From: Actinomycetota bacterium
GTDB taxonomy: Bacteria; Actinomycetota; Acidimicrobiia; Acidimicrobiales; CADCSY01
DNA: 36,188 bases
Assembly (NCBI GenBank): GCA_019348555.1
Contig: JAHWJH010000008.1
Coordinates: 1-36,188, forward strand
Direction of reading: 5' to 3'
The notes beneath the pieces are model-generated. The model searched no databases and had not been told where the DNA came from. It was given only the letters and a program-made list of their open reading frames with translations. This document shows, in pieces, positions 5,920 through 35,125 of the stretch. Made by a program: the position numbers and the translations under genes. The stretch's first letter is position 1; each line of letters begins with the position of its first letter.

Positions 5920-5971
5920 GGTGGGCGGCGGCGGCTTGGGCTTGCGGGTGCGGGCAGCGATCGGGCCAACC

Positions 5972-5977
5972 TACCGT
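5972..5977 (+). promoter_or_regulatory. Putative -10 element for a leaderless udg transcript
   Basis: TACCGT fits the actinobacterial TAnnnT -10 pattern and ends 8 nt before the ATG at 5986. No Shine-Dalgarno sequence is present between it and the start codon, which fits a transcript beginning at or next to the ATG. This is inferred from spacing only. Confidence 0.4.
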
Positions 5978-5985
5978 TTGCCCCG

Positions 5986-6669
5986 ATGGACGCAGCTGCC
6001 AGCGACTCGTTGGCGCAGGTCAGCGCCGAGGTGGTCCGGTGCCGGGCGTGCCCCCGCCTGGTCGAGTGGCGCGAGCAGGTGGCGACGGTCAAGCGAGCGG
6101 CCTATGCCGACGACGAGTACTGGGGCCGGCCCATCCCCGGCTTCGGCGATCCCCGCGCCCGCCTTCTGGTCGTGGGCCTGGCGCCCGCCGCCCACGGTGG
6201 CAACCGCACCGGCCGGGTGTTCACCGGCGACCGCTCGGGAGACTGGGTCTTCCGGGCGCTGCACCGGGCCGGCTTCGCCAACCAGCCGACCAGCGAGCAC
6301 CGCCACGACGGCCTCGCCCTGCGCGATGCCTACGTGGTCGCCGCCGTTCGCTGCGCCCCACCCGCCAACCGGCCCACCACCGTCGAGCGCGACACCTGCG
6401 TGCCGTACCTGGCGAGGGAGTGGGCGCTGCTCGATCAGATGCGGGTGGTGGTGGCGCTGGGGGCCTTCGCCGCCCAGGTGGTGGCCGCCCTTGCCGGGCT
6501 GCGCCCCCGACCCCGCTTCGGCCACGGGGTCGAGGCCCTCCTGCCCGGAGGGCGGACGCTGATCTGCTCGTACCACCCGAGCCAGCAGAACACCTTCACG
6601 GGCACCCTCACCGAGGAGATGTTCGACGCCGTGTTCAGCCGGGCACGCCACCTCGTCGACCGTCGCTGA
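5986..6669 (+). CDS. Family 5 uracil-DNA glycosylase (UDGb type)
   Basis: Base-excision repair enzyme that removes uracil, and often hypoxanthine or other deaminated bases, from DNA; 227 residues. Motif 1 is VVGLAPAAHGGNRTGRVFTG, in which the usual catalytic Asp/Asn is absent, as expected for family 5. The C-terminal motif is SYHPSQQNTFTGTLTEEM. Cysteines C19 and C22 (CRACP) plus two in VRCAPP and RDTCVPYL supply the four 4Fe-4S ligands. ATG at 5986 is chosen because it sits just before the first cysteine pair and 8 nt after a -10-like TACCGT; the longer upstream frame is antisense to the phosphomutase gene. It ends 14 bp before the convergent TauE gene. Confidence 0.93.
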   Translation: MDAAASDSLAQVSAEVVRCRACPRLVEWREQVATVKRAAYADDEYWGRPIPGFGDPRARLLVVGLAPAAHGGNRTGRVFTGDRSGDWVFRALHRAGFANQPTSEHRHDGLALRDAYVVAAVRCAPPANRPTTVERDTCVPYLAREWALLDQMRVVVALGAFAAQVVAALAGLRPRPRFGHGVEALLPGGRTLICSYHPSQQNTFTGTLTEEMFDAVFSRARHLVDRR

Positions 6670-6683
6670 TCCGGCCCGAGCGG

Positions 6684-7499
6684 TCAGCCTCGCCACAGGG
6701 CGGCGAGCTCGGCCCCGCCGTAGACCACGGCGATGGCCCCGAGCATCACCGCCACGACCTGCGTCAGCCGGCGGTCGCGGAGCCGCAGCGACGCCGCTGC
6801 CCCGAGCCGAGCGCCGGGCACCACGGTGACGGCGAGCACCACGGCCACCCGCCAGTCGATGTTGCCGAGGGCGGCGTGGGCGAGGGTGCCGGGCACGGCC
6901 AGCATGCCCACGCACACCAGTGAGGTGGCGATCGACACGCGCATCGAAAGCCCGATCTGGTGGAACGCCGGCACGAGCAGGACGCCGCCGCCGATGCCTA
7001 GGAGACCGGAGAGGACGCCGGCGGCTGCGCCGACGCCGGCGACGACCGACGCCGGCGGCGCAGCGGACCGCTTCGCCGCCGGTCCGTCGGCGGCGTCCTC
7101 GGCCTCGTCGCCGTCCTCGGAGCCGCCGAGGCTGGCGATGGTGCGCCAGGCACTGGCGCCGAGCAGCACGGCGGTGAGGAGCTGCAGGAGGTGGCCCTCG
7201 CCCGGTACCAGCCCGGCGAGCAGAGCACCCCCCACCGACGCCGTCATGCCGGCAGGCCCGGCGATGGTCACCACTCGCCAGTCGACCAGGCCCTCGGCCC
7301 GGTAGCGCAGACCTCCCGCCACGGCGCTCGGCAGGATCGCCGGCAAGGTGGTGCCCACCGCCACCAGGGGGGCGACGCCGAGGAGGCGGATCCCCGGGGT
7401 CGAGATGGTGGCTCCTCCCACACCGAGGGCACCGGAGAGGGCACCGGTGAGCAGGCCCACCACGCCGGTCAGCAGATCTCGCAGCAGACCGGTCTCCAC
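6684..7499 (-). CDS. TauE/SafE (DUF81) family membrane permease
   Basis: Integral membrane protein of the sulfite/organosulfonate exporter family, 271 residues with about eight transmembrane helices arranged as two repeats. The first repeat holds GLLTGALSGALGVGGATIST and the second GVLSGLLGIGGGVLLVPAF; these twin glycine-rich motifs are the family hallmark. A charged cytoplasmic loop (GGSEDGDEAEDAADGP) separates the halves. Starts at GTG 7499, 43 bp downstream of the sigma factor gene on the same strand, so it may be read through from it. The transported anion is unknown; members are linked to sulfite, sulfoacetate or taurine metabolism, none of which is encoded in view. Confidence 0.88.
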   Translation of the reverse strand: METGLLRDLLTGVVGLLTGALSGALGVGGATISTPGIRLLGVAPLVAVGTTLPAILPSAVAGGLRYRAEGLVDWRVVTIAGPAGMTASVGGALLAGLVPGEGHLLQLLTAVLLGASAWRTIASLGGSEDGDEAEDAADGPAAKRSAAPPASVVAGVGAAAGVLSGLLGIGGGVLLVPAFHQIGLSMRVSIATSLVCVGMLAVPGTLAHAALGNIDWRVAVVLAVTVVPGARLGAAASLRLRDRRLTQVVAVMLGAIAVVYGGAELAALWRG

Positions 7500-7542
7500 T
7501 GCTCCGCCTCTCGTCGGGCCGGCGCGAGGCGCCGGGGAACTC

Positions 7543-8475
7543 TCAGGCGGTCAAGAGGTCGCGCTCGCCGCGGTTGAACCGACGCCGGAGCTTCAGGACG
7601 GCCTTGGCCTCGATCTGGCGGATGCCCTCACGGGTCAGACCGAAGCGCTGCGACACCTCCTCGAGGGTCCGCGGGCGACCACGGTCGAGGCCGTAGCGCA
7701 GGCACAGGACCTCCCGCTCCCGCTGGTCGAGGCCCGAGAGCAGCTCGGCCACCTGGGCCGGCAGCATGGAGGAGAAGACCTGCTGGTCGGGCGCCTCCGA
7801 CGACGTGTCCTCGACCAGGTCGCCCAGCTCCCGCTCGCCATCGTGGAGCGGTTCGGAGAGCGATACGGGGTCCTGCAGGTAGGGAAGGAGCTCCTCGACC
7901 TTGCGCATCGACAGGTCGAGCGCCTCGGCCAACTCCTCGGCCCGTGGCGGGCGGCCGTGGCGGACCTCGAAGGCGATGCTCTCCATGCGTAGGGCGAACA
8001 GCTGGTCGCCGGCGTGGACCGGCAGGCGGATGGCCCGGCCGGTGTTGGCGATGCCGCGTCCGATCGCCTGGCGGATCCACCACGTGGCGTAGGTCGAGAA
8101 CTTGAAGCCCTTGTGGGGGTCGAACTTCTCGACCGCGTGCATCAGGCCGAAGTTGCCCTCCTGTACCAGGTCGAGCAACGGCAGGCCCGACGTGGGGTAG
8201 CGCTTGGCGATGGAGACGACCAGGCGCAGGTTGGAGTTCACGAACTGGATCGCCGCGTCGGTGCCGGCACGGACCTTCGCTTCCAGCTCCGGCCGGCGGG
8301 AGGGGGGCACCGGGCGGTCGCCCAGGAGCTCGGCGGCGGCGGCCTCGCCGGCCTGCACCGCTTCACCGAGGCGGAACTCGTCCTCCTTGGTGAGCAGCGG
8401 ATACTTGCCGATGTCGTTCAGGTAGAGCTGGACCAGGTCGTCATCGTCGAACCTGGTGCTTGGCTCTCTGGCCAC
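7543..8475 (-). CDS. RNA polymerase sigma factor, sigma-70 family group 2
   Basis: Primary-like sigma factor of 310 residues that lacks the long region 1.1, hence group 2 (SigB/HrdB relatives). Region 1.2 is LVQLYLNDIGKYPLLTKEDE. Region 2 includes NSNLRLVVSIAKRY, LLDLVQEGNFGLMHAVEKFD, FSTYATWWIRQAIGR and RAIRLPVH. Region 4 ends in the helix-turn-helix TLEEVSQRFGLTREGIRQIE. The intact region 2.4 residues predict recognition of ordinary TAnnnT-type -10 elements. Start is GTG 8475 behind a G-rich stretch. It has its own promoter in the 130-bp gap upstream (8555-8583). Likely a stress or stationary-phase sigma; that role is inferred from group membership. Confidence 0.93.
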   Translation of the reverse strand: MAREPSTRFDDDDLVQLYLNDIGKYPLLTKEDEFRLGEAVQAGEAAAAELLGDRPVPPSRRPELEAKVRAGTDAAIQFVNSNLRLVVSIAKRYPTSGLPLLDLVQEGNFGLMHAVEKFDPHKGFKFSTYATWWIRQAIGRGIANTGRAIRLPVHAGDQLFALRMESIAFEVRHGRPPRAEELAEALDLSMRKVEELLPYLQDPVSLSEPLHDGERELGDLVEDTSSEAPDQQVFSSMLPAQVAELLSGLDQREREVLCLRYGLDRGRPRTLEEVSQRFGLTREGIRQIEAKAVLKLRRRFNRGERDLLTA

Positions 8476-8554
8476 GTACTCCCCCCCCGGTGGAGCGGCC
8501 GGACCAACCCGGCCTCACTGCCTTTCGCCGGGGCGATCTCCCGACGTTGTCCGA

Positions 8555-8583
8555 ATCCTACCGTCGTCACCTGTACGTGGCAC
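8555..8583 (-). promoter_or_regulatory. Putative promoter of the sigma factor gene
   Basis: Read on the minus strand: -35 GTGCCA (8583-8578), a 17-bp spacer, then -10 TAGGAT (8560-8555). This matches four of six TTGACA bases and the TAnnnT pattern. A start near 8548 would give a leader of about 70 nt ahead of the GTG at 8475. Confidence 0.5.
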
Positions 8584-8605
8584 GCACGTGAGTTGGATTG
8601 ATCCC

Positions 8606-9016
8606 TCATCTGGGGAGCCGGCCCAACGTGTCGGCCTCCCCCTCGTCGACCTCGGTGGAGAAGAACGCGGTCAGCATCTCCGAGGCCACCTCCGGCGAGG
8701 TGAGACGCAGCCCCAGAGCGACCACGTTGGCGTCGTTCCAGCGCCGGGCGCCCCGAGCGGTCTCGGCATCGGTGCACAGCGCGGCTCGCACCCCCGGCAC
8801 CTTGTTGGCGGCGATGGAGACGCCGGTGCCGGTCCAGCAGCAGACCACGCCACGGTCGGCCCGGCCCGAGGCCACCGCCTCGCCCACCGATCGCCCGACC
8901 TCCGGCCAGGAGTCGCCGTCGGCCACCACGAGGACGTCGTGGCCGAGCTGGCTCAGGCACCGGTGGAGATGGTCGACCAGTGCCGTGTGCTCGTCGGTCC
9001 CGAGAGCCACCCGCAT
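8606..9016 (-). CDS. RpiB/LacA/LacB family sugar-phosphate isomerase
   Basis: Small Rossmann-like isomerase of the ribose-5-phosphate isomerase B family, 136 residues, a normal length. It carries CCWTGTGVSIAANKVPGVRA with the catalytic cysteine (second Cys, aligned to the Cys of ICGTG in E. coli RpiB) and RRWNDANVVALGLR, the conserved phosphate/substrate-binding helix. The N-terminal SDHAG motif is altered to GTDEHTA, and CGTG reads CWTG. The substrate could therefore be ribose-5-phosphate or another aldose phosphate. Starts at ATG 9016, 22 bp after the gpsA stop on the same strand, suggesting co-transcription with gpsA. Confidence 0.87.
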   Translation of the reverse strand: MRVALGTDEHTALVDHLHRCLSQLGHDVLVVADGDSWPEVGRSVGEAVASGRADRGVVCCWTGTGVSIAANKVPGVRAALCTDAETARGARRWNDANVVALGLRLTSPEVASEMLTAFFSTEVDEGEADTLGRLPR

Positions 9017-9038: not shown

Positions 9039-10043
9039 TCACCGATCCAGCCCGTGGAGCTCCGGGCGCGGTCGGCGGTGCATCAGCGCGGCCAGGGCGT
9101 CGGCCGCCGAGCGCTCGCCCCGGCACACGGCCACGGTCTGCTCGGCGATGGGCACCTCGACATCGAGCTCGGCTCCCAGCTCGCACGCCACCGGGGCGCT
9201 GTTGACGCCCTCGGCCACCCGCTGCAGGTCGGCGACGATGGCCGCCAGCTCCCGCCCTCGACCCAGCTCCACGCCGAGTTGGTGGTTGCGGCTGCGAGCG
9301 CTGCTGCAGGTCGCCACCAGGTCGCCCAGCCCCGCCAGCCCGGCGCACGTGCGGGCGTCGCCGCCGAGTGCCACCGCCAAGCGGGTCAGCTCGGCCAGAC
9401 CCCGGGTGACCAGGGCGGCTCTGGCGTTGTCGCCCAGCTGCATGCCGTCAGCCATGCCGGCGGCGATGGCCACGACGTTCTTGAGGGCGCCGGCGACCTC
9501 GCACCCGATCACGTCGTCGTTGGTGTAGACCCGGAAGCTGTCGGTGCTGAACGCCTGCTGGAGCCCGGTGGCGACGGCCCGGTCGGCGATGGCGAGCACC
9601 GACGCGGCCGGGAGGTCGGCACCGATCTCGCCGGCGAGGTTCGGGCCGGTCAGCGCCCCGGCGGGATGGCCCGGCAGGAGCTCGCCGATGATCTCGCTCA
9701 TGCGCTTGCGCGACCGCAGCTCGAGCCCCTTGGCCAGACTGACCACGGGGACGCCCGGCGCCAGATGGGGTGCCAGCGCCTCCATCACGGCCCGGAAGCC
9801 GTGCGTGGGCACGGCGACGGCGAGGGCGTCGACGTCGTGCACGGCTTCGGCCAGGCTGCTCGTGGCTTGCAGTGACGGCGGCAACACCACGCCGGGCAGG
9901 TAGGCCCGGTTGGTGTGGGCGGTGTCGATCTCCACCGCCAGGTCGGCCCGCCGGGCCCACAGGACGGTGGGTCCGTTGGCGCAACGCAGGGCGGCGAAGG
10001 TGGTGCCCCACGACCCCGCCCCGATGACCGCCACCCGCAGCAC
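9039..10043 (-). CDS. gpsA: NAD(P)-dependent glycerol-3-phosphate dehydrogenase
   Basis: Reduces dihydroxyacetone phosphate to sn-glycerol-3-phosphate for phospholipid synthesis in the cytosol; 334 residues. The nucleotide-binding motif is VIGAGSWGTTFA at the N-terminus. The catalytic lysine lies in CEVAGALKNVVAIAAGMADG, and substrate-binding segments include ALTGPNLAGEI and GLAGLGDLVATC. Initiation at GTG 10043 fits a -10 TAGTCT placed 6 nt upstream, pointing to a leaderless mRNA. It is divergent from cofC; from memory the same gpsA/cofC pair is found in mycobacteria (Rv2982c/Rv2983). Confidence 0.95.
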   Translation of the reverse strand: MLRVAVIGAGSWGTTFAALRCANGPTVLWARRADLAVEIDTAHTNRAYLPGVVLPPSLQATSSLAEAVHDVDALAVAVPTHGFRAVMEALAPHLAPGVPVVSLAKGLELRSRKRMSEIIGELLPGHPAGALTGPNLAGEIGADLPAASVLAIADRAVATGLQQAFSTDSFRVYTNDDVIGCEVAGALKNVVAIAAGMADGMQLGDNARAALVTRGLAELTRLAVALGGDARTCAGLAGLGDLVATCSSARSRNHQLGVELGRGRELAAIVADLQRVAEGVNSAPVACELGAELDVEVPIAEQTVAVCRGERSAADALAALMHRRPRPELHGLDR

Positions 10044-19229: not shown

Positions 19230-19895
19230 TCAGGCGGACAGGAGCTTGCCGATGGGGCTGTTGTCGAGCTCGGCGAGCAGCTCGGCCACGTCCTCGTAGA
19301 CGGCGATGGCTCCTGCCTCTTCGAGCTGCTCCACCGTGGAGCCACCGGTGAGCACGCCCACCACCTTCAGACCGACTCGTCCGGCAGCTTCCACGTCCCA
19401 CCGGGTGTCGCCCACGACGAGGGTCCGTTCGGGGTCGAGGTCGAACTTCTTCAGCGCCGCGTCGAAGATGTCCGGCGCCGGCTTGCTGTGCTCGACGTCC
19501 CCCTTCGACACGGCGTCGTCGATGGCGTCATCGGCCCCGACGGCCTCGCGGAGCCGCTCCAGGTCCTCCTCGTCCGACGAGGTGGCCAGCACCACCCGAG
19601 CCTCGCGTCGAGCGAGCTCCCTCACGAGCTCCGCCGCTCCGGGGAACGCCTTGATCTCCTTCTTGAACGACTCGTAGTGGACGGAATGGGCCTCGCTCGC
19701 CTCCTTGCTCTCGCGCCCGACCAGGCGGTGCACGAGCTGGTCGGAGCCCATGCCGATCAGGGGGTGGATCCTGCTCATGGGCACTTCCTCGCCGATGTCC
19801 TGGAAAGCTCGCCACCAGGACACGGTGTGGAAGTAGTTGGTGTCGACGAGCGTGCCGTCGACGTCGACGAGAATGGAGGGCCGGTGATCAGACAC
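19230..19895 (-). CDS. HAD superfamily hydrolase, phosphoglycolate phosphatase-like
   Basis: Haloacid dehalogenase-fold phosphatase, 221 residues. Motif I is LVDVDGTLVDTNYFH (nucleophile Asp and acid Asp), motif II ATSSDEEDLE, motif III the lysine in VEHSKPAPDIFDAALKKF, and motif IV VVGDTRWDVEAAGR. A helical cap lies between motifs I and II (GMGSDQLVHRLVGRESKEA). The substrate is unknown; small phosphorylated sugars or glycolate phosphate are usual. Starts at GTG 19895. The 148 bp between it and the convergent lipoprotein gene contain a GCCGGG/CCCGGC stem (19115-19134) without a T-run. Confidence 0.88.
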   Translation of the reverse strand: MSDHRPSILVDVDGTLVDTNYFHTVSWWRAFQDIGEEVPMSRIHPLIGMGSDQLVHRLVGRESKEASEAHSVHYESFKKEIKAFPGAAELVRELARREARVVLATSSDEEDLERLREAVGADDAIDDAVSKGDVEHSKPAPDIFDAALKKFDLDPERTLVVGDTRWDVEAAGRVGLKVVGVLTGGSTVEQLEEAGAIAVYEDVAELLAELDNSPIGKLLSA

Positions 19896-25224: not shown

Positions 25225-27096
25225 TCATCGGCGACGAGGTCGTGCAACTCCACTGCCAGCGATCACGCCGCGAAGGAAGTCGACGAGGCGATCGACGTGG
25301 GCGTCGAAGGTGAAGTCGCGTCGTCGCGACCAGACGTTGTCGCGCAAGACCGCCATCCGGTCACGATCGCGCAACTGCGCGACCAGGTCGTCGGCCTCAT
25401 GCCAGAACACACCGAGATCGCCCTCGCGTGCCAGCGCCTGGGTGGCCACGATCGATCCGGTGTTGTCACGCTGGATCATCGGCACTCCCGCCGCGGCCAG
25501 CGTCCCCATCCGTGCCGGGTAGTTGAGGTCGTCCCAGCTCGCCGCGTAGGGGTCGCCGAGGTTGTCGCTGCGGAAGCTATGGAGCCACCCGGCGTCGTAG
25601 CGGGAGAACTCGGCCACCCAGTCGCTCTGGTCGACCTGGGGATGCAGGTGGAAATGAGCAGGGGCCAAGCGCTGGACCTCGCTCACCCATGACCGCATCT
25701 GTGCCGCAGCCTTCCCGCTGTAGAGGTGGACGTGGATGTCGGCAGCGGCGAGCGCGGCGACCACCTCCGGTTCGGGGCCCATCGGACGCCCTGGGATGAC
25801 CGTGTGCAGGGCGCCGTCCCGGGAAGAGAGAAGCGGCGAGCGCTCCCCGGACAGCCATTCTGCCTTGGGCAGGTCTCCGTCGACCACCAGGGTCGGGCGG
25901 TGCCGGCTGGCGGGAACCGTCGCCGCGAACCAGTCACGCAGCTCAGGGCTGGAGTAGATCACCCCGTCGGAGCGGGTATGCAGCTCGACGAGCTCGGGCC
26001 ACAGGCCGTGCTCTTGGGCAAAGAAGGGGCCTTCCTTGAAGTGCCAGACAAAGGGAACGCCAAGGTCGGCGGTCAGCACTTCGTGGGCGAAGCGGATGCT
26101 CTGCCAATTGAGCAGGGCGTAGATGACATCGGGACGCAGCCTCCTCACCGCTCGGCGCCAGTCGTCGCTGGGAACCTCGGCGACGTGGCCGAAAGGCAAC
26201 GGCCCTACGGTGTTGAACCACAAGGGGCTGTCGGTCCACAGCCCGTGCAGCTCGTGTCCCCGCTCCTCCATCGCGAGGATCCGCTCGGGGTTGTGGGCCA
26301 ACTCACCGACCAGCAGCACCCGCAGCCCGTCAGGCGCGCGGGGCGTGGACGGCCGCTCCCGAAAGCGGCGGTAGTGCTCCACCTCGTCGTGCAGGTGGCC
26401 CACGGTGGACTGCAGGCGGAGCGGTTCCTGCACCTGGAACCGCGAGCGGTAGGTGTTGAGCCCACCCCACGGCTCGCGCAGTGCTTTGTGGCGTTGACGG
26501 GGATGGCAACCCCACTGACAGCTGACCTGACCCGTCTCGACCGCCGACCCGAGCGAGAGCAGTCGGGTCCAGAGCATGCGGTCGAGGTCGTCGGTGGTGA
26601 GCTCGGAGCGTTCGATCCACCGCTCGGCGGTCCGGCGGTGCGCGACCTGAACGAGCTGCAATGGTTCGCCCTCGATCCGCCCCGACGAGGTCGTGACCTG
26701 GTGATGACGCACGCCGGTCACAGCGAGGACGGCCTCCGGCGCAGCTTCGAGGGCGGTGGTGAGCGACTTCAAGTGGTCGAGGTAGTACACGTCGTCCGAG
26801 GGCAGATAGGCGATGTAGTCCCCGCTCGCGCAGTCCAGGCCGCGATTGAGGGCGGCACCCAGACCGCGGTTGTGATCGAAGACCTCCAGACGGACCCGCG
26901 GGTCGTCGAGCGCGCCGCCGAGCGCTTGACGGGTGTCGCCAGGCGAGCCGTCGTCCACGACGATCAGCTCCCAATCCGGGGCGCTCTGGGCGAACAGCGA
27001 TGCCACCGCACCAGGCAGGAACGCCTCCTGGTCATAGGTGGGCATCACCACGCTGACCCGCACCGCCGGGCTCGGCTCGTTGCCCATGTGGCTCAC
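25225..27096 (-). CDS. Two-domain glycosyltransferase (GT2 N-terminal, GT-B-like C-terminal)
   Basis: 623 residues. Residues 1-250 are a family 2 (GT-A) domain: VRVSVVMPTYDQEAFLPGAV, ELIVVDDGSPG, NRGLGAALNRGL and the metal-binding AYLPSDDVYYLDHL at about 100-102. From about 258 a second domain with the look of GT4/GT-B starts (LRVLLVGELAHNPERI, GELAHNPERILAMEERGHEL). It later holds IHVHLYSGKAAAQM and WLHSFRSDNLGDPY with a C-terminal GVPMIQRDNTGSIV typical of CESA-like capsule enzymes. GTG 27096 has GGAGGAGGGA upstream; ATG 27087 is an alternative. Not secreted. Divergent from the cytidylyltransferase gene; it may decorate that pathway's product. The sugar and acceptor are unknown. Confidence 0.85.
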   Translation of the reverse strand: MSHMGNEPSPAVRVSVVMPTYDQEAFLPGAVASLFAQSAPDWELIVVDDGSPGDTRQALGGALDDPRVRLEVFDHNRGLGAALNRGLDCASGDYIAYLPSDDVYYLDHLKSLTTALEAAPEAVLAVTGVRHHQVTTSSGRIEGEPLQLVQVAHRRTAERWIERSELTTDDLDRMLWTRLLSLGSAVETGQVSCQWGCHPRQRHKALREPWGGLNTYRSRFQVQEPLRLQSTVGHLHDEVEHYRRFRERPSTPRAPDGLRVLLVGELAHNPERILAMEERGHELHGLWTDSPLWFNTVGPLPFGHVAEVPSDDWRRAVRRLRPDVIYALLNWQSIRFAHEVLTADLGVPFVWHFKEGPFFAQEHGLWPELVELHTRSDGVIYSSPELRDWFAATVPASRHRPTLVVDGDLPKAEWLSGERSPLLSSRDGALHTVIPGRPMGPEPEVVAALAAADIHVHLYSGKAAAQMRSWVSEVQRLAPAHFHLHPQVDQSDWVAEFSRYDAGWLHSFRSDNLGDPYAASWDDLNYPARMGTLAAAGVPMIQRDNTGSIVATQALAREGDLGVFWHEADDLVAQLRDRDRMAVLRDNVWSRRRDFTFDAHVDRLVDFLRGVIAGSGVARPRRR

Positions 27097-27157
27097 GCTC
27101 GACGCTTCCCTCCTCCGGCAACGAGGCCAGATCCGAGCCGCAGCTCGCGAGCACAGG

Positions 27158-27163
27158 AATGTA
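27158..27163 (-). promoter_or_regulatory. Putative -10 element for the glycosyltransferase gene
   Basis: TACATT on the minus strand fits TAnnnT and lies about 60 nt before the GTG at 27096. No clear -35 is present, so this is weak. Confidence 0.25.
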
Positions 27164-27222
27164 GATGGCTGGACGGGAACGGCGACGACTCGCGCCGGTA
27201 GGTCCGCTGGATGCGCCGTGGG

Positions 27223-27228
27223 TACGAT
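27223..27228 (+). promoter_or_regulatory. Putative -10 element for the cytidylyltransferase gene
   Basis: TACGAT fits TAnnnT and lies 46 nt before the ATG at 27275, in the 178-bp divergent space shared with the glycosyltransferase gene. The -35 is not convincing. Confidence 0.3.
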
Positions 27229-27274
27229 CCGGCGCCGAGTCGCTGGGGCTCAGCAGGGTGGGACTGGGGCGGCC

Positions 27275-28096
27275 ATGAGCGAAGCGGCGTCGGGACGGCA
27301 CGACGTGGTCGTCGTCGTGCTGGCGGCAGGGCACGGAAAGCGCCTGGCCCAGGCGGGCGGGCCGGGACCGAAGTGGCTCACCCACGTCGGCGGGGTACCG
27401 ATCGCCGAGCGCCAACTGACGGCGATCGAACACGGGCTCGGGCCCGACACGGAGGTCGTCGTCGTGGTCGGTCATGCCGCCGACCGAGTCGAGCGGTACT
27501 GCCGGGAACGCGCGACACGCAGTCCCCTCCGCCAGCGTCTGGTGCACAACGACAACTACCTCCAGCGCAACAACTGGTACAGCCTCCTCGTCGGGCTGGA
27601 TGCGCTCGACGGGAGGCTCGGAGACGATCAGGTCCTCGTCGTGTTGAACAGTGACCTCTTCGCGCTCCCGCCATGGACCGCTGCTCTGTTGCGCGTCGCC
27701 GCCGAGCTCGTTGACATCCCGGGCTTTCTCGCCGTCGACGTCGGGCGTCCCATCACCGAGGAGGCCATGAAGGTCGCGGCTGGGCCGAACGACGCTGCCG
27801 GGCGCCGGTGGTGCACCGCCATCGGCAAGGTTCGTGTGAGCGATCCGGTGGGCGAGTACGTGGGCCTGTCGGCGCTGGCGCCTTCCGGACGGGCGCTGGT
27901 CCACGACGCTCTTCGGGCGTTCACCGATGAGGAGGCCAGGGCCGACGCCTGGTACGAGGAGGCCTTCCACGACATCAGTACGGCGTCACCGTTCCTCAGC
28001 GTGTTGCCGACCCCCTCATCCGACTGGGTCGAGATAGACGACGCCGAGGATCTGCTGATCGCCGAGCGACTGGCCGAGCGCTTTCCTCAGCTCTGA
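27275..28096 (+). CDS. Nucleotidyltransferase, phosphocholine/inositol-1-phosphate cytidylyltransferase-like (LicC/IPCT type)
   Basis: 273-residue sugar-nucleotide-transferase fold enzyme. The signature is VVVLAAGHGKRLAQAGG (LAAGxGxRL at about 16-24) with a substrate lysine in GPKWLTHVGG. It then shows NDNYLQRNNWYSLLVGLDAL, VLNSDLFALPPW (metal Asp) and, close to the end, the LicC/IPCT-type SDWVEIDDAEDLLIAERL. These features suggest it forms a CDP-linked alcohol from CTP plus an alcohol phosphate, not a sugar-UDP product. ATG 27275 is the start; a longer frame upstream runs over the intergenic region. It converges with the dehydrogenase gene and their ends overlap by 10 bp. Confidence 0.85.
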   Translation: MSEAASGRHDVVVVVLAAGHGKRLAQAGGPGPKWLTHVGGVPIAERQLTAIEHGLGPDTEVVVVVGHAADRVERYCRERATRSPLRQRLVHNDNYLQRNNWYSLLVGLDALDGRLGDDQVLVVLNSDLFALPPWTAALLRVAAELVDIPGFLAVDVGRPITEEAMKVAAGPNDAAGRRWCTAIGKVRVSDPVGEYVGLSALAPSGRALVHDALRAFTDEEARADAWYEEAFHDISTASPFLSVLPTPSSDWVEIDDAEDLLIAERLAERFPQL

Positions 28097-29244
28097 CCCC
28101 ACAGAGCCTCGACCAGCACGGTGGCCTTCGCCTCATCCAGCGCCGCGCTCTCGAGGATGGTGAACCGACCGGGCCGGGTCGACGGAGCTCGCAGCAACGC
28201 GGCAACCATGTCGTGGTGCGAGAGCCCGAGCTGCCTGGGGTGATGCGGCAGTCCGAGGTTCACCAAGCACTGGCGGAAGCCCTCCACGTCCAAACCGTGG
28301 AGCGCCAGCGACACGAGGGAGGCGAACGCCACCTGGGCGCCGTGGTGAGCCCGCCCCCCGAAGAGAAAGTCGATGGCATGGGAGATCTTGTGTTCGGCAC
28401 CGGAGACGGGTCTGGAGGTGCCGACGGCCATCATCGCGAAGCCGGAGGTGACCAGGGCTTGCGCCAGCAGGCCGACCAGCGCCGGGTCGACGCGCTCGGG
28501 CCCGAGCGGCTCCACCAACAGGGGCTCGATCAGCAGAAAGGACTCCGCCGAGAGGTGCCAGGCAGCGTGGTTGATCTGCTCCACACCGGCGACCGACGCC
28601 AACTTCCAGTCGTACAGAGCGAGGGGGTTCGAGAGCAGGTCGCCGATCCCGGCCCGCAGCGAGGCGATGGGTGCCTTGACCAAGGTGGGCCGGGAGAAGA
28701 AGGCGAGGCAGGGAGCAACCGCTTCGAAACTGTCGGTCAACCCGCCAACGGCCTCGGGAAGCACCGAGACGGGAGAGCAGATGCCGTCGTGCGACAGCTG
28801 CGTCGGAACGGCGATGAAGGGGATACCGGCTCCGACGGTCACCAGCTTGGCCACGTCCAGGCACCGCCCGCCACCGATGGCGACGACGGCGTCAGCGCCG
28901 CGTGCCGCCCCGCTGCAGAGGCGGGCCCAGCCCCGAGTGGCGTGTCGCCCGGGGACGGCGATGCCGGTCGCTCCCGAGATGTGGCGACGGAGCCCTTGAC
29001 CGTGCCCCGAGACGACCAGGAAAGGTCGCTCCACACCGTTCGCCCGCAACCACACGGCGAGCTCCTCTGCGGCGTCGTCCTCGTCGTAGGTCGATGCCGA
29101 GATGGTGATCTGAGGCGGCGGCGTGGTACGGGCGACGACGTAGAGGGTCCCCGGAGGCTCAGCCGGCAGGACGGGGATGTCGATGAGGAACGGGGAGGCG
29201 CTAGGAGCCGCCGGCTGTTCGGCCGTCCCGCTAGCCCCGTGCAT
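28087..29244 (-). CDS. Glycerol-1-phosphate dehydrogenase-like iron/zinc alcohol dehydrogenase (EgsA/AraM type)
   Basis: 385-residue metal-dependent dehydrogenase. NAD site: AVVAIGGGRCLDVAKLVTVG (GGG at 124-126, Asp130, Lys133). The G1PDH hallmark is FIAVPTQLSHDGICSPVSVL. Metal ligands would be Asp202 in RAGIGDLLSN, a His in GAEHKISHAIDF (285/289) and His301 in RAHHGAQVAF. It resembles archaeal and AraM-type enzymes that make sn-glycerol-1-phosphate from dihydroxyacetone phosphate. Start ATG 29244 overlaps the CDP-alcohol phosphotransferase end by 14 nt. A 2-deoxy-inosose/dehydroquinate synthase-type enzyme is a more distant alternative. Confidence 0.8.
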   Translation of the reverse strand: MHGASGTAEQPAAPSASPFLIDIPVLPAEPPGTLYVVARTTPPPQITISASTYDEDDAAEELAVWLRANGVERPFLVVSGHGQGLRRHISGATGIAVPGRHATRGWARLCSGAARGADAVVAIGGGRCLDVAKLVTVGAGIPFIAVPTQLSHDGICSPVSVLPEAVGGLTDSFEAVAPCLAFFSRPTLVKAPIASLRAGIGDLLSNPLALYDWKLASVAGVEQINHAAWHLSAESFLLIEPLLVEPLGPERVDPALVGLLAQALVTSGFAMMAVGTSRPVSGAEHKISHAIDFLFGGRAHHGAQVAFASLVSLALHGLDVEGFRQCLVNLGLPHHPRQLGLSHHDMVAALLRAPSTRPGRFTILESAALDEAKATVLVEALWGQS

Positions 29245-29809
29245 CGAGGTGCCTGATGGTCCAGTACATGCGATGCACGGCGGTGACCATCCCGAGGACG
29301 GCGACCACGGCCAGCCCGATGAACGCCGCACCGAACAACCCGGCGACGACGAGGATGAGCATGCGGGTGTCCCGTCCGGCGATTCCCACCTGGCAGTCGG
29401 TGCCCACGGCCTGCGCCTTGGTGCGGGTATAGCTCGTCATGAACGTTCCGACCAGGGCAGCGAATCCGACCGGTGCCAGCGAGGAGATGTCCGAGAAGGT
29501 CAGTCCCACCACCAATGCCGCATCCGTCCAACGGTCGAAGACATGGTCGAGGTAGGAGCCGGACTTCGAGGCACGACCGGTTGCCCTGGCCAGATCGCCG
29601 TCGATGCAGTCGGTGAGCGATCCCAGCAATGTCAGGATCGCTCCGACCACGAAGGCCCGGCGGGCGAAGGCGAGGCCTCCGGCGAAGGAAAGCGTGGCGC
29701 TGGCGTAGGTGACCTGGTTGGGACTCACCGGCGTCCCGGCCAAGGCCGCCGCCGCCGGGACCGACAGGGGTCGGTACACATACCGGGTGAGCGCGTAGCC
29801 GATCTCCAC
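29231..29809 (-). CDS. CDP-alcohol phosphatidyltransferase-family enzyme
   Basis: Membrane enzyme of 192 residues with about five or six helices that joins a CDP-activated alcohol to a second alcohol. The family motif DG-x2-AR-x8-G-x3-D-x3-D is complete, with D70 G71, A74 R75, G84, D88 and D92. GTG 29809 is chosen because AAGGAGG (29816-29822) lies 6 nt ahead and the protein then begins EIGYALTRYVYRPLSVPAAA; a GTG at 29845 adds 12 residues without a Shine-Dalgarno. The gene overlaps the G1PDH-like gene downstream, so the two enzymes are made together. The head group is unknown; PgsA, PIP synthase and DIPP synthase are relatives. Confidence 0.87.
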   Translation of the reverse strand: MEIGYALTRYVYRPLSVPAAAALAGTPVSPNQVTYASATLSFAGGLAFARRAFVVGAILTLLGSLTDCIDGDLARATGRASKSGSYLDHVFDRWTDAALVVGLTFSDISSLAPVGFAALVGTFMTSYTRTKAQAVGTDCQVGIAGRDTRMLILVVAGLFGAAFIGLAVVAVLGMVTAVHRMYWTIRHLDARG

Positions 29810-29948
29810 ACCCACCCTCCTTCTCGAGCCGCCAACCCCCGGCACTGCTTGCCCGACGGACCCGAAGGTCTACATGGCCGGGTGGCCTCCCGTCCACGAG
29901 AGAGGAGTCAGCGGTGCAGTTCGCCGCCGTAGCCGAGCGCCGAGCAGT

Positions 29949-30647
29949 ATGCCCATGGTGCTGAACCGTGATGCTTTGGTGGTGGGTTTCGACCTCGACA
30001 TGACCCTGATCGACCAACGAGTCGGGATCGCCTCGGCGATGGCGGCGCTGGAGGCGGAGATCGACGCCGGCATCGACGTGCAGTGGGTGGTCGACAACAT
30101 CGGCCCGCGGCTCGAGACGGTCCTCGCCAGATGGGTCGCCCCCGAGGGGATCGAGGGTGCGGCGTCGAGGTACCGGGAGCTCTTTGGCGTCGTCGGAGTG
30201 GCCACGACCCGAGCCATGCCGGGAGCGGCGGGTGCGGTGGATGCCGTGCACGCAGCCGGAGGCAAGGTCATCGTTGTCACGGCAAAGTACGAGCCCCACG
30301 CCCGGGAGGGCCTCCGCGCCGTTGAGCTTGTGCCGGACGCCGTGTTCGGGTTGCGGTTCGGCCCCGACAAGGCCGACGCGCTCCTCGCCCATGGAGCGGA
30401 GATCTATGTCGGGGACCATCCAGGCGACGTGCTCGCCGCCAGGGCCGGCAACGCCGTGGCGGTCACGGTGTCGAGCGGCCCCGCGTCTGCCGACGAGCTC
30501 GCCGATGCCGGCGCCGACGTCGTCCTCGGGACCCTGCACGAGTTCCCGACCTGGTTCGACGGCTACCGTCGGTCGACGCGACGTCGCCGAGCTCGGGTGG
30601 ACCGAGCACATGGCCCCGGGCCAGCGGCTGAGCGCCGACCTGATTGA
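29949..30647 (+). CDS. HAD-family phosphatase, C-terminus extended by fusion into a foreign fragment
   Basis: 232 residues from ATG 29949 (ATG 29955 and an upstream ATG 29874 with GAAGG are alternatives). Motif I is LVVGFDLDMTLIDQRVG, motif II VIVVTAKYEP, motif III lysine in RFGPDKADALLAHG and motif IV IYVGDHPGDVLAARAG, all intact. The fold should end about EFPTWFDGY (near 30566). The last 26 codons are an Arg-rich tail read in another frame through a ligD-like fragment, which suggests the native stop was lost. Activity should be kept since the motifs come first. In this gene set it could dephosphorylate a phosphodiester intermediate, as in inositol phosphodiester synthesis. Confidence 0.82.
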   Translation: MPMVLNRDALVVGFDLDMTLIDQRVGIASAMAALEAEIDAGIDVQWVVDNIGPRLETVLARWVAPEGIEGAASRYRELFGVVGVATTRAMPGAAGAVDAVHAAGGKVIVVTAKYEPHAREGLRAVELVPDAVFGLRFGPDKADALLAHGAEIYVGDHPGDVLAARAGNAVAVTVSSGPASADELADAGADVVLGTLHEFPTWFDGYRRSTRRRRARVDRAHGPGPAAERRPD

Positions 30648-31717: not shown

Positions 31718-32239
31718 ATGAGAGTCGAGACCATCGAGGCCACCATCGAGGCATGGACGAAGGACCCGGAGAAGGCGCTGGGCGCTCCGGTCGTGACCGC
31801 CCGCGCAGACGAGAGCCAGGCCGTGATCCAGGCCGGACCGTTCACCTGGCGCGCCGACCTGCCGCCAGCGCTCGGTGGCACCAACGAGGCGCCGAGCCCC
31901 ACCGCACTGCTGCTCGGAGCGCTCGCCGGCTGTGCCGTCGTGTTCGTGCGAGACACGCTTGCTCCGCAGCTCGGAGTTCGAGTCGACGCGCTGGAAGCGG
32001 CGGTGCGATGCGAGACCGATGCGCGCGGCCTCCTCGGCATGGACGGTGCGGAGCCGAACCTCCGCAACGTCAGCCTGGAGGTCACGGTCCAGTCGCCTGA
32101 CGGCGACACGGGCGTCAACAAGATCGCCGAGACGTGGCAGCAGCGGTGCCCGATCTACCTGGCGCTCGTCAACCCCCTCGACGTGGCGGTGCAGTTTCGG
32201 ACTGGGATCTCGGGTGCCGCACTGGCTAGCTCTAGCTAG
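31718..32239 (+). CDS. OsmC/Ohr-family peroxiredoxin-like protein
   Basis: 173 residues; enzymes of this family reduce organic hydroperoxides using a pair of cysteines. The first reactive cysteine is in LLLGALAGCAVVFVRDTLA and the second in WQQRCPIYLALVNPLDVAVQ, the usual spacing for OsmC-like proteins. The N-terminus TIEATIEAWTKDPEKALG is an extra strand pair. The start ATG 31718 has an ideal AAGGAGG at 31707-31713, 4 nt away, and TACGCT at 31669 could be a -10. The cupin-LuxR regulator is divergent. It ends 4 bp past the stop of the LVIVD gene on the opposite strand (tail-to-tail overlap). Confidence 0.87.
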   Translation: MRVETIEATIEAWTKDPEKALGAPVVTARADESQAVIQAGPFTWRADLPPALGGTNEAPSPTALLLGALAGCAVVFVRDTLAPQLGVRVDALEAAVRCETDARGLLGMDGAEPNLRNVSLEVTVQSPDGDTGVNKIAETWQQRCPIYLALVNPLDVAVQFRTGISGAALASSS

Positions 32240-33822
32240 CCGGCGTCACCCTCGTACTGGAAGGAGTAGAAACCGCCCCGTTCATCAGCTGTGAGCACGT
32301 AGCCCTCATAGAACACCGCGTCCCAGATCATGGGCCGGTCGATCGGGAACTCGGTGAAAAAACCGACCAGCGGCTGGATCAGCGGCTGGCCAGCCGGGCG
32401 GATCTCGTCACCGTGAGGCACGACGAAACCAAGCTCTCGGGGCCGCTCCGGTCGGCCTCTGAACGCCGCCGACGCGTCGAGCACATACACACCACCGTGG
32501 TAGTGGGACAGGTAGATCTGATCGCCCACGATCTGCTGGTTGTGCGGCGAGAACCGCAGGTCACCCCCCGCCCGGCCGGCCGGGTTGGTCCACGTGGTCA
32601 CGAGCGCTGCCTCGGAGGCGGCGCGAAGCTGCTCCACGGCGTCATTCCCGCTGTCCACGGCGGGGCCGAGTTTGGAGAATTCGGTGGCGTCGACGATCCA
32701 GAGCGGCCCGGGCTTGTCGCCGTTGCCCTGCACCTGGCCGCACCCACGGCGCTGGTCGGCCGCCGACTGGTTGCCAAGATCGAGGCTCTCGGCATCGAGC
32801 GTGAGCGAGCGCCGGCCATCGCGCACGACCACGTCGATGGTGTGGGCGTACCAGTCGGCGGAGCACTGGGGTGTCAGGTCCCACTCAGCGAGGAGCTGCG
32901 GTCTGGCCGGGTCCGTGACGTCGTAGACGTACGCTCCCGACTCGAAGCCCGCGGCGACGTAGAGGTAGGTGCGCCCGGTCAGCGCATCGTTCTGGATGAA
33001 GCTGTCATGGACGTCGTCGATGCTCAGCCGGGTGACTTTGGCGAGACTGGGCATACCGCCGTCCCGGTCGAGCCTGCTGATCTCGAGCCCCAGACCATTG
33101 GCCACGGAGAAGACGTACTCGCCCGGCGCCCGCGGCCCACCCTCGACGGGGCCGGAAGGAATGACATGCGAGCGCGACGTATGCACGCCGCCCAGGCTGA
33201 TGACCGGATAGATCTGTGCCAGCCGCGGGATGCGGGGCTGGCGAACGTCGATCACCTCGACGCTGGGGAGAGACACGGGCCGAGCCTTCAGGTCTGGCAG
33301 GTCGCCGGGGAGGAGGGTCAGGGCCTGGGTCGAGAGGAACGCCACCGTGCCGTCGGTCGAGAGGTCGACGAAGGCGCCGCAGTTGACGTCGGTCACCAGC
33401 GCCTCACACTGCGAGCCGCGGTACCGGCTCAAGAACTGTGGCTGGGCCGGGTTGGAGACGTCGAAGAACAGGACGCCCGACTCGGGAAACGTCACCGTCA
33501 CAGCAGCAAGGCCATTCTCCACGTCCATCTCACCCAGCACCACGTCTTGTTGGGCGCCAAGCTCGTCGCGCAGCCCGTCGAAGAACACCTGGCGCATCCG
33601 GCAGGCGAAGCGGTGCTGGGTGATGTCGAGGTGGTCGTGGCCGACGCCATCGGGCATCGACGCCGCTGCTTGATCAGTGCAGGGCCCCAGAGCTTCAATG
33701 GCCGGCGGAGTCGTGGTGAACTCCCGATCACCGCTGGCGCCCCGGGGATGCGCCAACGCCACCGCCGGGGCGACGAGGGCGAGCGCCACAATCACTGGCA
33801 CCCAACGCAAACGACGCGTCAC
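32236..33822 (-). CDS. Secreted LVIVD-repeat protein
   Basis: 528-residue secreted beta-propeller-like protein. GTG 33822 is preceded by AGAGGAGG 5 nt upstream and gives the signal peptide TRRLRWVPVIVALALVAPAV, cut at about ALAHP. LVIVD repeats are seen as VLFFDVSNPAQPQFLSRY, VEVIDVRQPRIPRLAQIYPV, AYVYDVTDPARPQLLAEW and VYVLDASAAFRGRPER. Other marks are ISRLDRDGG, HSRSHVIP-like histidines and two Cys pairs (GSQCEALVTDVNC, CSADW...RRGC) likely forming disulfides. Extracytoplasmic role unknown; such proteins often bind surface partners. A TATCGT at 33857-33862 could be its -10. Confidence 0.83.
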   Translation of the reverse strand: MTRRLRWVPVIVALALVAPAVALAHPRGASGDREFTTTPPAIEALGPCTDQAAASMPDGVGHDHLDITQHRFACRMRQVFFDGLRDELGAQQDVVLGEMDVENGLAAVTVTFPESGVLFFDVSNPAQPQFLSRYRGSQCEALVTDVNCGAFVDLSTDGTVAFLSTQALTLLPGDLPDLKARPVSLPSVEVIDVRQPRIPRLAQIYPVISLGGVHTSRSHVIPSGPVEGGPRAPGEYVFSVANGLGLEISRLDRDGGMPSLAKVTRLSIDDVHDSFIQNDALTGRTYLYVAAGFESGAYVYDVTDPARPQLLAEWDLTPQCSADWYAHTIDVVVRDGRRSLTLDAESLDLGNQSAADQRRGCGQVQGNGDKPGPLWIVDATEFSKLGPAVDSGNDAVEQLRAASEAALVTTWTNPAGRAGGDLRFSPHNQQIVGDQIYLSHYHGGVYVLDASAAFRGRPERPRELGFVVPHGDEIRPAGQPLIQPLVGFFTEFPIDRPMIWDAVFYEGYVLTADERGGFYSFQYEGDAG

Positions 33823-33919
33823 CGTCACCTCCTCTGCCTGGAGCCTCTCGCCGCGGACGATAGCCCACCCCGTCGCTCCGTTGCTCCTGTCCCGACGACC
33901 GCCGGATGGCTTGGTTCCG

Positions 33920-34894
33920 TTATCGGAGGCGCCGCGGATCACGCTTGGCGGCCGCCCTCCGCTTCCCCTCGTGCATCGCCTCGACCCGGCCAGCCGGGAT
34001 GGCTCGCCCCTCTTCGATCAGGTCGCCGCTCACCCGCTGGGCCGGGGGCATGTGCTCGGCCCACCGGTTGCCTTCGCCGAGGTGCCGGCCGGCGGTGTGC
34101 ACGGTGAAGTCTTGCGGCACCACGTCATCGAGCTCGCCCCAGCCGACGGGGAACGAGACCGGGACACCGGGCCGGATCCGCGGGCTGTAGGCGGAGACCA
34201 CCGTCGCCCCGCCGACCCGAGTGGCGTCCACGAAAACCTTCCCCTCCCGGTCCTCCTTCATGAACGCCGTGGTGGCCACCGCGGGGTCGAGCCGAGCAGC
34301 CCGAGCAGCGATGGCACGGGTGGCAAACGCCGCTTCCGCCGCGGAGACCGTGTCGTCGACGGGAACGAACACGTGGACGCCCTTGGCTCCGCTGGTCTTG
34401 ACCGCGCCCTGCAGCTTCGCGTCGCTGAGCACCTGGCGGACCACGTGGGCGGCCCGCACGGCCATAGGGAAACCGGAGGAATCGGGTGGGTCGAGGTCGA
34501 CCACGAGATGGGTGGTGCGGTCTGGGTGGTCGGCCCGAGACAGGGTCGGGTGGTACTCGACCGCCCGCTGGTTGGCGAACCACAACAGCGTGCGGCGGTC
34601 ATTGCACAAGGCGTAGGACACCTCGCGCCTGGACGTCTCCGCCCAGAGCCGCACCGTGGGGACCCATGCCGGCGTGTACTTCGGGACGTTCTTCTGCATG
34701 AAGGCCTCTTGGCCCCGATGTACCCGGACGACCGACAGCGGCCGATCCTTCAACTCGGGCAGGATCAGCTCACGCACGCCGTCCAGATACTCCACCAGGT
34801 CTCGCTTCGTCGCCCCGGCGCCCTCGAACAGCGGCTGGTCGAGGTTGGTGAGCTGGACACCGTCGCGTTCCTCCGCGCCGCTGGAACCGCTCAC
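33920..34894 (-). CDS. LigD-type primase-polymerase domain protein
   Basis: Archaeo-eukaryotic primase-like DNA polymerase as in the LigD polymerase domain, 324 residues, without ligase or nuclease domains. The N-terminus VQLTNLDQPLFEGAGATKRD is typical, followed by VRVHRGQEAFMQKNVPKY and NDRRTLLWFANQRAVEYHPT. The metal-binding motif is HLVVDLDPPDSSGF and the substrate-binding motif AVKTSGAKGVHVFVPVDD. The end holds FVDATRVGGATVVSAYSPR and the tail also found in the fragment at 30571. GTG 34894 is the chosen start. The 231 bp upstream hold nothing I can assign. No ku gene is in view. It could join non-homologous end joining or gap filling; the role is inferred from the family. Confidence 0.9.
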   Translation of the reverse strand: MSGSSGAEERDGVQLTNLDQPLFEGAGATKRDLVEYLDGVRELILPELKDRPLSVVRVHRGQEAFMQKNVPKYTPAWVPTVRLWAETSRREVSYALCNDRRTLLWFANQRAVEYHPTLSRADHPDRTTHLVVDLDPPDSSGFPMAVRAAHVVRQVLSDAKLQGAVKTSGAKGVHVFVPVDDTVSAAEAAFATRAIAARAARLDPAVATTAFMKEDREGKVFVDATRVGGATVVSAYSPRIRPGVPVSFPVGWGELDDVVPQDFTVHTAGRHLGEGNRWAEHMPPAQRVSGDLIEEGRAIPAGRVEAMHEGKRRAAAKRDPRRLR

Positions 34895-35125
34895 CGCGGA
34901 AGACGCTAGTGACGAGCGAGGCCGGGGCACGACAACGAACGCAAACTGGGACATGTGGAGTCCCAACCTCCAGAACAGGCGCGTGCTGGCGGGCATGGCC
35001 GAGGTCCGCCTGACCTTCTGGGGCGAGCGCTTCCCCGAGCTCTGTGGCTCCGAGGACCGATACCGGCTGCTCTCCCCGCAGACCGCCCGGCGCGAGCGGG
35101 CCCACCGCATCGACCACGGCCACGC

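Follow-up and report, generated by a model that had tools for sequence, protein, structure and literature searches.

The locus described here raises the question of which product could be assembled in an uncultured actinobacterium by a cytidylyltransferase, a dehydrogenase of the sn-glycerol-1-phosphate type, a CDP-alcohol phosphotransferase, a phosphatase, and a glycosyltransferase that are encoded side by side. The initial annotation of the window (i.e., the whole analysed stretch of 36,188 nucleotides) had proposed a pathway to a CDP-activated phosphodiester or, alternatively, to a lipid head group. The reading tentatively preferred here, with a confidence slightly short of even, is that the five genes produce a polyol phosphodiester that derives from sn-glycerol-1-phosphate (G1P) and is glycosylated.

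Gene inventory and conserved layout

The five open reading frames and their family assignments were confirmed as initially annotated, and the third-position GC of all five was of the coding type. The two-domain glycosyltransferase (GT; 25225..27096, minus strand) contained a GT2 domain at its N-terminus (residues 15-143; Pfam PF00535, E = 2.6e-28). The second, C-terminal domain was only weakly GT4-like (Glyco_transf_4, E = 0.0023), had no counterpart in the 246 other genomes of the class, and could not be assigned by fold because the predicted GT model was too poor (pLDDT 45). The predicted CTP:phospho-alcohol cytidylyltransferase (CyT; 27275..28096, plus strand), a member of the LicC/PntC/IPCT group, was identified by profile comparison with the PDB and as a Pfam MobA-like NTP transferase; its longest open frame begins upstream of 27275, at 27038. 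It was followed by genes for an sn-glycerol-1-phosphate dehydrogenase-like iron-containing alcohol dehydrogenase (FeADH; 28087..29244, minus strand; Pfam Fe-ADH), a class I CDP-alcohol phosphotransferase that was AF2299/AIPS/PIPS-like (CAPT; 29231..29845, minus strand; Pfam CDP-OH_P_transf), and a HAD phosphatase proposed to remove a terminal phosphate (HAD; 29949..30647, plus strand; Pfam HAD, E of about 4e-8). CAPT and FeADH overlapped head to tail, CyT was convergent on FeADH, and GT/CyT and CAPT/HAD formed divergent pairs; the five genes are not one operon.

The unusual strand layout of all five genes recurred in three genus mates (L049, L050, and L051), and a more distant genome (L052) contained four of them in the same layout, without HAD. 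The GT copies in these four genomes were 78-83% identical and stood beside the same genes. Because this layout was kept despite flanking genes that were shuffled or different among these genomes and the window, the grouping is not due to chance. It is thus very improbable that the genes are unrelated neighbours or serve a sugar-nucleotide pathway, as their distribution over both strands might suggest, together with a CyT fold that is common to UTP, dTTP, and GTP enzymes with close structural Z-scores; besides the conserved layout, the sequence profile that sets CyT apart from sugar enzymes speaks against it. Only the three genus mates had a HAD orthologue at this position, and HAD was absent in the L052 and L058 genomes, two of the five related genomes with this CAPT; HAD is confined to the genus and lies outside the conserved core. 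The three gene classes that a diglycerol phosphate or glycerophosphoinositol solute pathway would require (cytidylyltransferase, CAPT, and phosphatase) were linked within the genus, with substrates that are predicted. A second HAD hydrolase gene (19230..19895, minus strand), possibly a loose member of the locus, directly adjoined GT in L050 and L051 and was displaced by about 5 kb from GT in the window.

The dehydrogenase and cytidylyltransferase pair

In profile comparisons with the PDB, the five best solved relatives of CyT were LicC (95 bits), PntC (92 bits), TmIPCT (78 bits), AfIPCT (61 bits), and AfIPCT-DIPPS (58 bits), the last separated by a thin margin from the other solved enzymes, which reached at most 57 bits. 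The profile favoured enzymes for CTP:phosphocholine, aminoethylphosphonate, and inositol-1-P, which supports the grouping of CyT with CTP-dependent phospho-alcohol enzymes, apart from UTP/dTTP sugar enzymes. The LicC/IPCT-like character proposed earlier was thereby upheld, and a preference for UTP or dTTP sugar substrates is not indicated by the sequence. The predicted CyT model (pLDDT 94) gave PntC, TmIPCT, LicC, and AfIPCT-DIPPS as top Foldseek entries, and every enzyme listed by Foldseek/VIA-align had a Z-score of about 24 to 28. Since these scores do not separate CTP from UTP/GTP enzymes, the argument for CTP rests on the sequence profiles.

By far the best NCBIfam family of FeADH was G1P dehydrogenase (G1PDH; NF002022, 192 bits, below the curated cut-off of 413), and its best PDB match was the G1PDH 5fb3 (E = 9e-34). 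Residues D153, H285, and H301, presumably the Asp/His/His metal ligands of the family, were invariant in 85 of 85 homologues, and H152 of the SHDG motif, which aligned with 5fb3, was conserved in 81 of the 85. Since the window also encodes GpsA (9039-10043), the supply of ordinary G3P does not require FeADH.

Related loci were recovered by an FeADH alignment scan of genome contigs; a scan with CyT alone yielded no relatives. CyT was located within 300 bp of FeADH in 73 of the 80 related loci sampled, which ranged from Streptomyces to Patescibacteria. When FeADH and CyT were searched independently in 247 genomes, they were adjacent in all four genomes with a strong FeADH match (the window's own excluded), and no CyT match lay beside the four weaker FeADH matches. 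The co-occurrence across genomes that the initial annotation had proposed to check was therefore observed repeatedly, both for this pair and for the gene set in L049-L052. FeADH/CyT is the core of the set; it is widespread in actinobacteria and, as far as found, uncharacterised. In Streptomyces and other bacteria this core was common and often accompanied by a CAPT, and most of these loci were of the surface-glycan kind and carried exporters.

Most related loci lie among surface-glycan genes, so the chief alternative to a soluble solute is a surface product. In that case, FeADH and CyT would produce CDP-glycerol or a comparable CDP-alcohol, while CAPT and GT would assemble or modify a cell-surface glycan or glycolipid that carries phosphoglycerol, which is possible but rather doubtful. 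Related FeADH/CyT pairs were accompanied by ABC-2 exporters, GT2 enzymes, Stealth phosphotransferase, Glyphos_transf, WbaP-like Bac_transf, flippase, and type I phosphodiesterases. Furthermore, the nearest FeADH relatives outside the five-gene layout (L053-L057), which neighbour the window clade in the FeADH tree, were found in polyprenyl-phosphate glycan-type loci. On the other hand, exporter, flippase, and polyprenyl-phosphate transferase were absent from the five genes and the conserved flanks of L049-L052, and the CAPT of the window belongs to the PIPS/AF2299 type, in which it differs from the CAPTs of those surface-glycan loci. The CDP-glycerol glycerophosphotransferase PF04464, a polymerase, had no match in the window's own genome (a MAG that is 86% complete), and a classical teichoic-acid-type polymer was rejected on this ground.

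In L053-L057, FeADH adjoined CyT with no CAPT motif within 4 kb, an arrangement that suggests G1P as the substrate of CyT. This weighs against a route in which CyT would activate inositol-1-phosphate, CAPT would join it with either G1P or inositol-P (DIP/GPI type), and FeADH would supply the acceptor only. The scores of CyT against both IPCTs and the inositol-phosphate synthase of the host are consistent with such a route; however, no inositol-phosphate synthase gene was found within the cluster, and AF2299 is closer to CAPT than AfDIPPS, which makes CDP-inositol as the donor decidedly improbable.

The phosphotransferase and its acceptor

The motif of CAPT, D79-x2-D82-G-x2-A-R-x8-G96-x3-D100-x3-D104, was complete with respect to the class I CDP-alcohol phosphotransferase motif (D-x2-DG-x2-AR-x(7-9)-G-x3-D-x3-D), as initially annotated, and D79, D82, G83, A86, R87, G96, D100, and D104 were invariant in six orthologues. 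Among solved enzymes, the CAPT profile scored highest to AF2299 (79 bits; E = 4.7e-21, alignment across the transmembrane domain, over profile positions 9-184 of 194), followed by PIP synthases (60 bits) and AfDIPPS (47 bits). The best NCBIfam family was archaetidylinositol-P synthase (144 bits, below the cut-off of 180), and phosphatidylinositol-phosphate synthase NF045883 gave 93.7 bits, below its curated cut-off of 170. S138, R141, R161, and R192 of CAPT, all invariant, are the counterparts of S132, K135, R155, and R195 of MtPIPS, which function in phosphorylated-acceptor binding (PMC4634129); R141 for K135 is a conservative change. AF2299 was solved with CDP-glycerol, and its donor pocket is small and hydrophilic (PMC8633023, PMC4634129). 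These comparisons support a resemblance of CAPT to soluble-donor enzymes that take a phosphorylated acceptor.

The host genome contained its own PIPS-like gene (C283), the product of which scored 133.7 bits against NF045883 and was 33% identical to CAPT. A role of CAPT as a housekeeping PIP synthase was rejected, as each of the four genomes from the genus had a separate PIPS-like copy. The lipid head group offered as an alternative by the initial annotation also became less likely. In that case, CAPT would take CDP-diacylglycerol and G1P or another polyol phosphate and GT would glycosylate the phospholipid, or CyT would feed a CDP-polyol to a lipid acceptor. The NCBIfam scores of CAPT to archaetidylinositol-P synthase and PIP synthase (144 and 94 bits) are in line with this, as is a Bacteroidetes NTP-transferase/CAPT/HAD cluster that is proposed for inositol lipids (PMC9246714). 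However, the CDP-diacylglycerol option gives CyT no role, and lipid-acceptor CAPTs have extra helices (PMC4634129), whereas the 204-aa CAPT aligned over its length with six-helix, soluble-acceptor enzymes. AF2299, its closest solved relative, does not process lipids. Together with the separate PIPS-like gene and the lack of a GGGP synthase match (PcrB, PF01884) in the 86%-complete genome, this renders a lipid product unlikely. Archaeal-type ether lipids were rejected because of the same PcrB/GGGPS result.

Proposed route and comparison with known systems

In the preferred route to a glycosylated phosphodiester, FeADH would reduce dihydroxyacetone phosphate to G1P, the enantiomer usually regarded as archaeal, and CyT would convert it with CTP to CDP-glycerol of the sn-1 series. 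The membrane enzyme CAPT would move glycerol phosphate from CDP-glycerol onto a phosphorylated soluble polyol, either another glycerol phosphate or the L-myo-inositol-1-phosphate that the host inositol-phosphate synthase makes, to form a phosphorylated phosphodiester. HAD, or another phosphatase where HAD is absent, would strip the terminal phosphate to yield diglycerol phosphate or glycerophospho-inositol, to which GT would probably add a sugar. We infer the substrates, stereochemistry, step order, and product solubility of this route; the identities of the genes, their conserved linkage, the residues of the catalytic and acceptor sites, and the CTP-dependent subgroup of CyT were shown. The CDP-activated phosphodiester pathway of the initial annotation was supported in part, by the linkage, the CyT group, and the soluble-donor type of CAPT; HAD falls outside the core. 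The FeADH and CAPT scores below curated NCBIfam cut-offs, the two HAD-less genomes, and the glycan-type loci of L053-L057 count against the route.

More broadly, FeADH/CyT might be a module for making CDP-glycerol from G1P that is widespread among bacteria. It would serve the surface phosphoglycans of many actinobacteria and Patescibacteria and, in this genus, a glycosylated phosphodiester solute, although this generalisation is doubtful. If true, a G1PDH-like dehydrogenase and cytidylyltransferase module would bring the archaeal glycerol-phosphate enantiomer into bacterial envelope or solute chemistry. The genes of the locus are candidates for a bacterial pathway of the diglycerol-phosphate or glycerophosphoinositol type. 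No paper on this combination of genes was found in literature searches, in agreement with the earlier remark that no described actinobacterial locus with exactly this set is known.

The locus resembles the scheme proposed for diglycerol phosphate and glycerophospho-inositol in Archaeoglobus fulgidus, the source of AF2299, to which CAPT is nearest. That scheme, which Borges et al. are said to have put forward in J Bacteriol in 2006, reportedly comprises a CDP-glycerol donor, a phosphorylated polyol acceptor, a phosphorylated intermediate, and then a phosphatase. In contrast to it, the locus has a separate CyT gene, a linked, dedicated G1PDH-like gene, and an added glycosyltransferase, and its product is a prediction. 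The di-myo-inositol phosphate pathway (IPCT/DIPP synthase) likewise combines a cytidylyltransferase and a CAPT, both homologous to those of the locus, but DIPPS is more distantly related to CAPT, and the locus has G1PDH linked instead of inositol-phosphate synthase. CAPT belongs to the same fold family as phosphatidylinositol-phosphate synthase and shares its catalytic motif and its residues for the phosphorylated acceptor, but scores higher to AF2299. In the Bacteroidetes alternative inositol-lipid cluster, NTP transferase, CAPT, and HAD lie side by side as in the locus; however, according to the part of the report that describes it, this cluster adjoins inositol-phosphate synthase and is proposed for lipids, likewise unconfirmed, and that part names neither the dehydrogenase nor the glycosyltransferase present in the locus (PMC9246714). 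Streptomyces-type loci, located beside apparent hopanoid genes, contain CAPT-DUF5941, CyT, FeADH, a second CAPT, GT2, and an ABC-2 exporter; they differ from the window in their CAPT types, exporter, other GTs, and the placement of genes on one strand, but as in the window, FeADH adjoins CyT and a CAPT lies near.

A conserved five-gene block

All five genes that the initial annotation had read as a possible pathway for a CDP-activated phosphodiester or unusual polar lipid were present, and each ORF showed coding-type GC by codon position. The block comprised a GT2 glycosyltransferase (GT; 25225-27096, minus strand), a MobA-like NTP transferase (cytidylyltransferase, CyT; 27275-28096, plus), an Fe-ADH dehydrogenase whose top NCBIfam model was sn-glycerol-1-phosphate dehydrogenase, G1PDH (FeADH; 28087-29244, minus), a CDP-alcohol phosphotransferase (CAPT, CDP-OH_P_transf; 29231-29845, minus; top NCBIfam model archaetidylinositol-phosphate synthase), and a HAD-family phosphatase (29949-30647, plus). 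CAPT and FeADH overlapped by 14 bases, CyT and FeADH were convergent, and the GT/CyT and CAPT/HAD pairs were divergent, thus indicating several transcription units.

A GTDB genome scan with the FeADH alignment yielded 80 loci, three of which (L049-L051) contained all five genes in the layout of the window, and a fourth (L052), from a more distant genome, lacked only HAD. Judged from CAPT coordinates and CyT places, L049-L051 represent the remaining three genomes of the genus to which the window belongs. The gene set is real and conserved, and the shared grouping is not due to chance. In a sample of 78 relatives, all four members of the genus had a window-type CAPT (76-91% identity), as did one genome of another family; eight genomes from the family's other genera had none. 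The GT C-terminal domain occurred in all four related loci and was found in none of 246 other genomes of the class. Genes flanking the block mostly differed, except for a second HAD hydrolase that adjoined GT in L050 and L051 (19230-19895 in the window, about 5 kb from GT) and, in L049, a DUF2071 gene that lay apart from the block.

L050 carried two tandem copies of the two-domain GT (4211-8670), 83% and 60% identical to that of the window and separated by a HAD gene. The window also encoded a 568-aa protein that matched no Pfam family and looked repetitive by eye (32236-33942), and a protein with a LigD-type primase-polymerase domain (33920-35110).

A wider FeADH/CyT module

CyT lay within 300 bp of FeADH in 73 of the 80 loci, and a complete-motif CAPT within 4 kb in 54; a variant with His at the motif's fourth Asp was found within 4 kb in 13. 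When CyT and FeADH were searched independently in 247 genomes of the class, four strong FeADH matches (E below 1e-40) came from genomes other than that of the window, and all four adjoined CyT, with CAPT nearby; none of the four weak matches adjoined a CyT match. In L058, CAPT and FeADH occurred together, and the CyT of that genome lay elsewhere on the contig, in a DUF4012-type locus.

Gene contexts varied. Streptomyces-type loci (L062-L128; about 7-20 kb, in Streptomyces and relatives) contained CAPT-DUF5941, CyT, FeADH, a second CAPT (with the His variant in some), GT2, and an ABC-2 exporter, followed downstream by polyprenyl synthetase, phytoene/squalene-synthase-like, and squalene-hopene-cyclase-like genes, hopanoid names assigned by reading the sequences; a literature search found no description of this locus type. 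The variant motif (G-x3-D-x3-H) also occurred in CAPTs adjoining CyT/FeADH in L035, L036, L037, and L039. L053-L057 carried DUF4012, CyT, FeADH, a type I phosphodiesterase, and a WbaP-like transferase. The phosphodiesterase (PF01663 tested in L053; by eye in L054-L057, L060, and L065) lay closely downstream of CyT/FeADH in these actinobacterial and patescibacterial loci. Two Patescibacteria loci contained genes named by reading as flippase-like and phosphodiesterase-like, together with CyT, FeADH, and CAPT. Most related loci are of the surface-glycan kind, which makes such a product the main rival to a soluble phosphodiester. The wider, uncharacterized FeADH/CyT module may be the find of greater importance.

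Enzyme classes and candidate products

The CyT profile scored highest against LicC (95 bits) and PntC (92), followed by the IPCTs of T. maritima (78) and A. fulgidus (61), AfIPCT-DIPPS (58), and other solved nucleotidyltransferases (at most 57). The nearest Foldseek entries of its structural model (pLDDT 94) agreed, but fold scores do not discriminate CTP-dependent from UTP/GTP enzymes. The closest solved relative of FeADH was G1PDH 5fb3, and D153, H285, and H301 were invariant in 85 homologues.

The CAPT profile ranked AF2299 (79 bits) above PIP synthases (about 60) and AfDIPPS (47). AF2299, solved with CDP-glycerol, has a small, hydrophilic donor pocket, in contrast to PIP synthase, which has a lipid groove there (PMC4634129, PMC8633023). 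The MtPIPS acceptor residues S132, K135, R155, and R195 (PMC4634129) correspond to CAPT S138, R141, R161, and R192, invariant in six orthologues. This likeness and the kept residues suggest that CAPT takes a soluble CDP-alcohol as donor and a phosphorylated, soluble compound as acceptor; a lipid product is therefore less likely.

FeADH would reduce DHAP to sn-glycerol-1-phosphate (G1P), CyT would convert G1P into CDP-glycerol, CAPT would form a phosphorylated glycerol-phospho-polyol, HAD would release the phosphodiester, and GT would glycosylate it. We infer all substrates and the stereochemistry of this scheme. The pathway put forward in the initial annotation is partly supported: the conserved gene set and enzyme classes fit. 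FeADH is paired with CyT whether or not CAPT is present, which favours G1P as the substrate of CyT; a CDP-inositol variant seems quite improbable. Besides GpsA, which lies in the window, the host genome encodes an inositol-phosphate synthase (L129) and a further PIPS-like protein (L004); the lack of matches to PcrB and CDP-glycerol glycerophosphotransferase is suggestive at most because the MAG is 86% complete.

Starting from DHAP alone, the gene set could yield diglycerol phosphate; with host inositol phosphate, it could yield glycerophosphoinositol. A CDP-glycerol route was reportedly described in Archaeoglobus by Borges and colleagues in 2006. Known solutes include diglycerol phosphate and mannosylated di-myo-inositol phosphate (PMC1224877).
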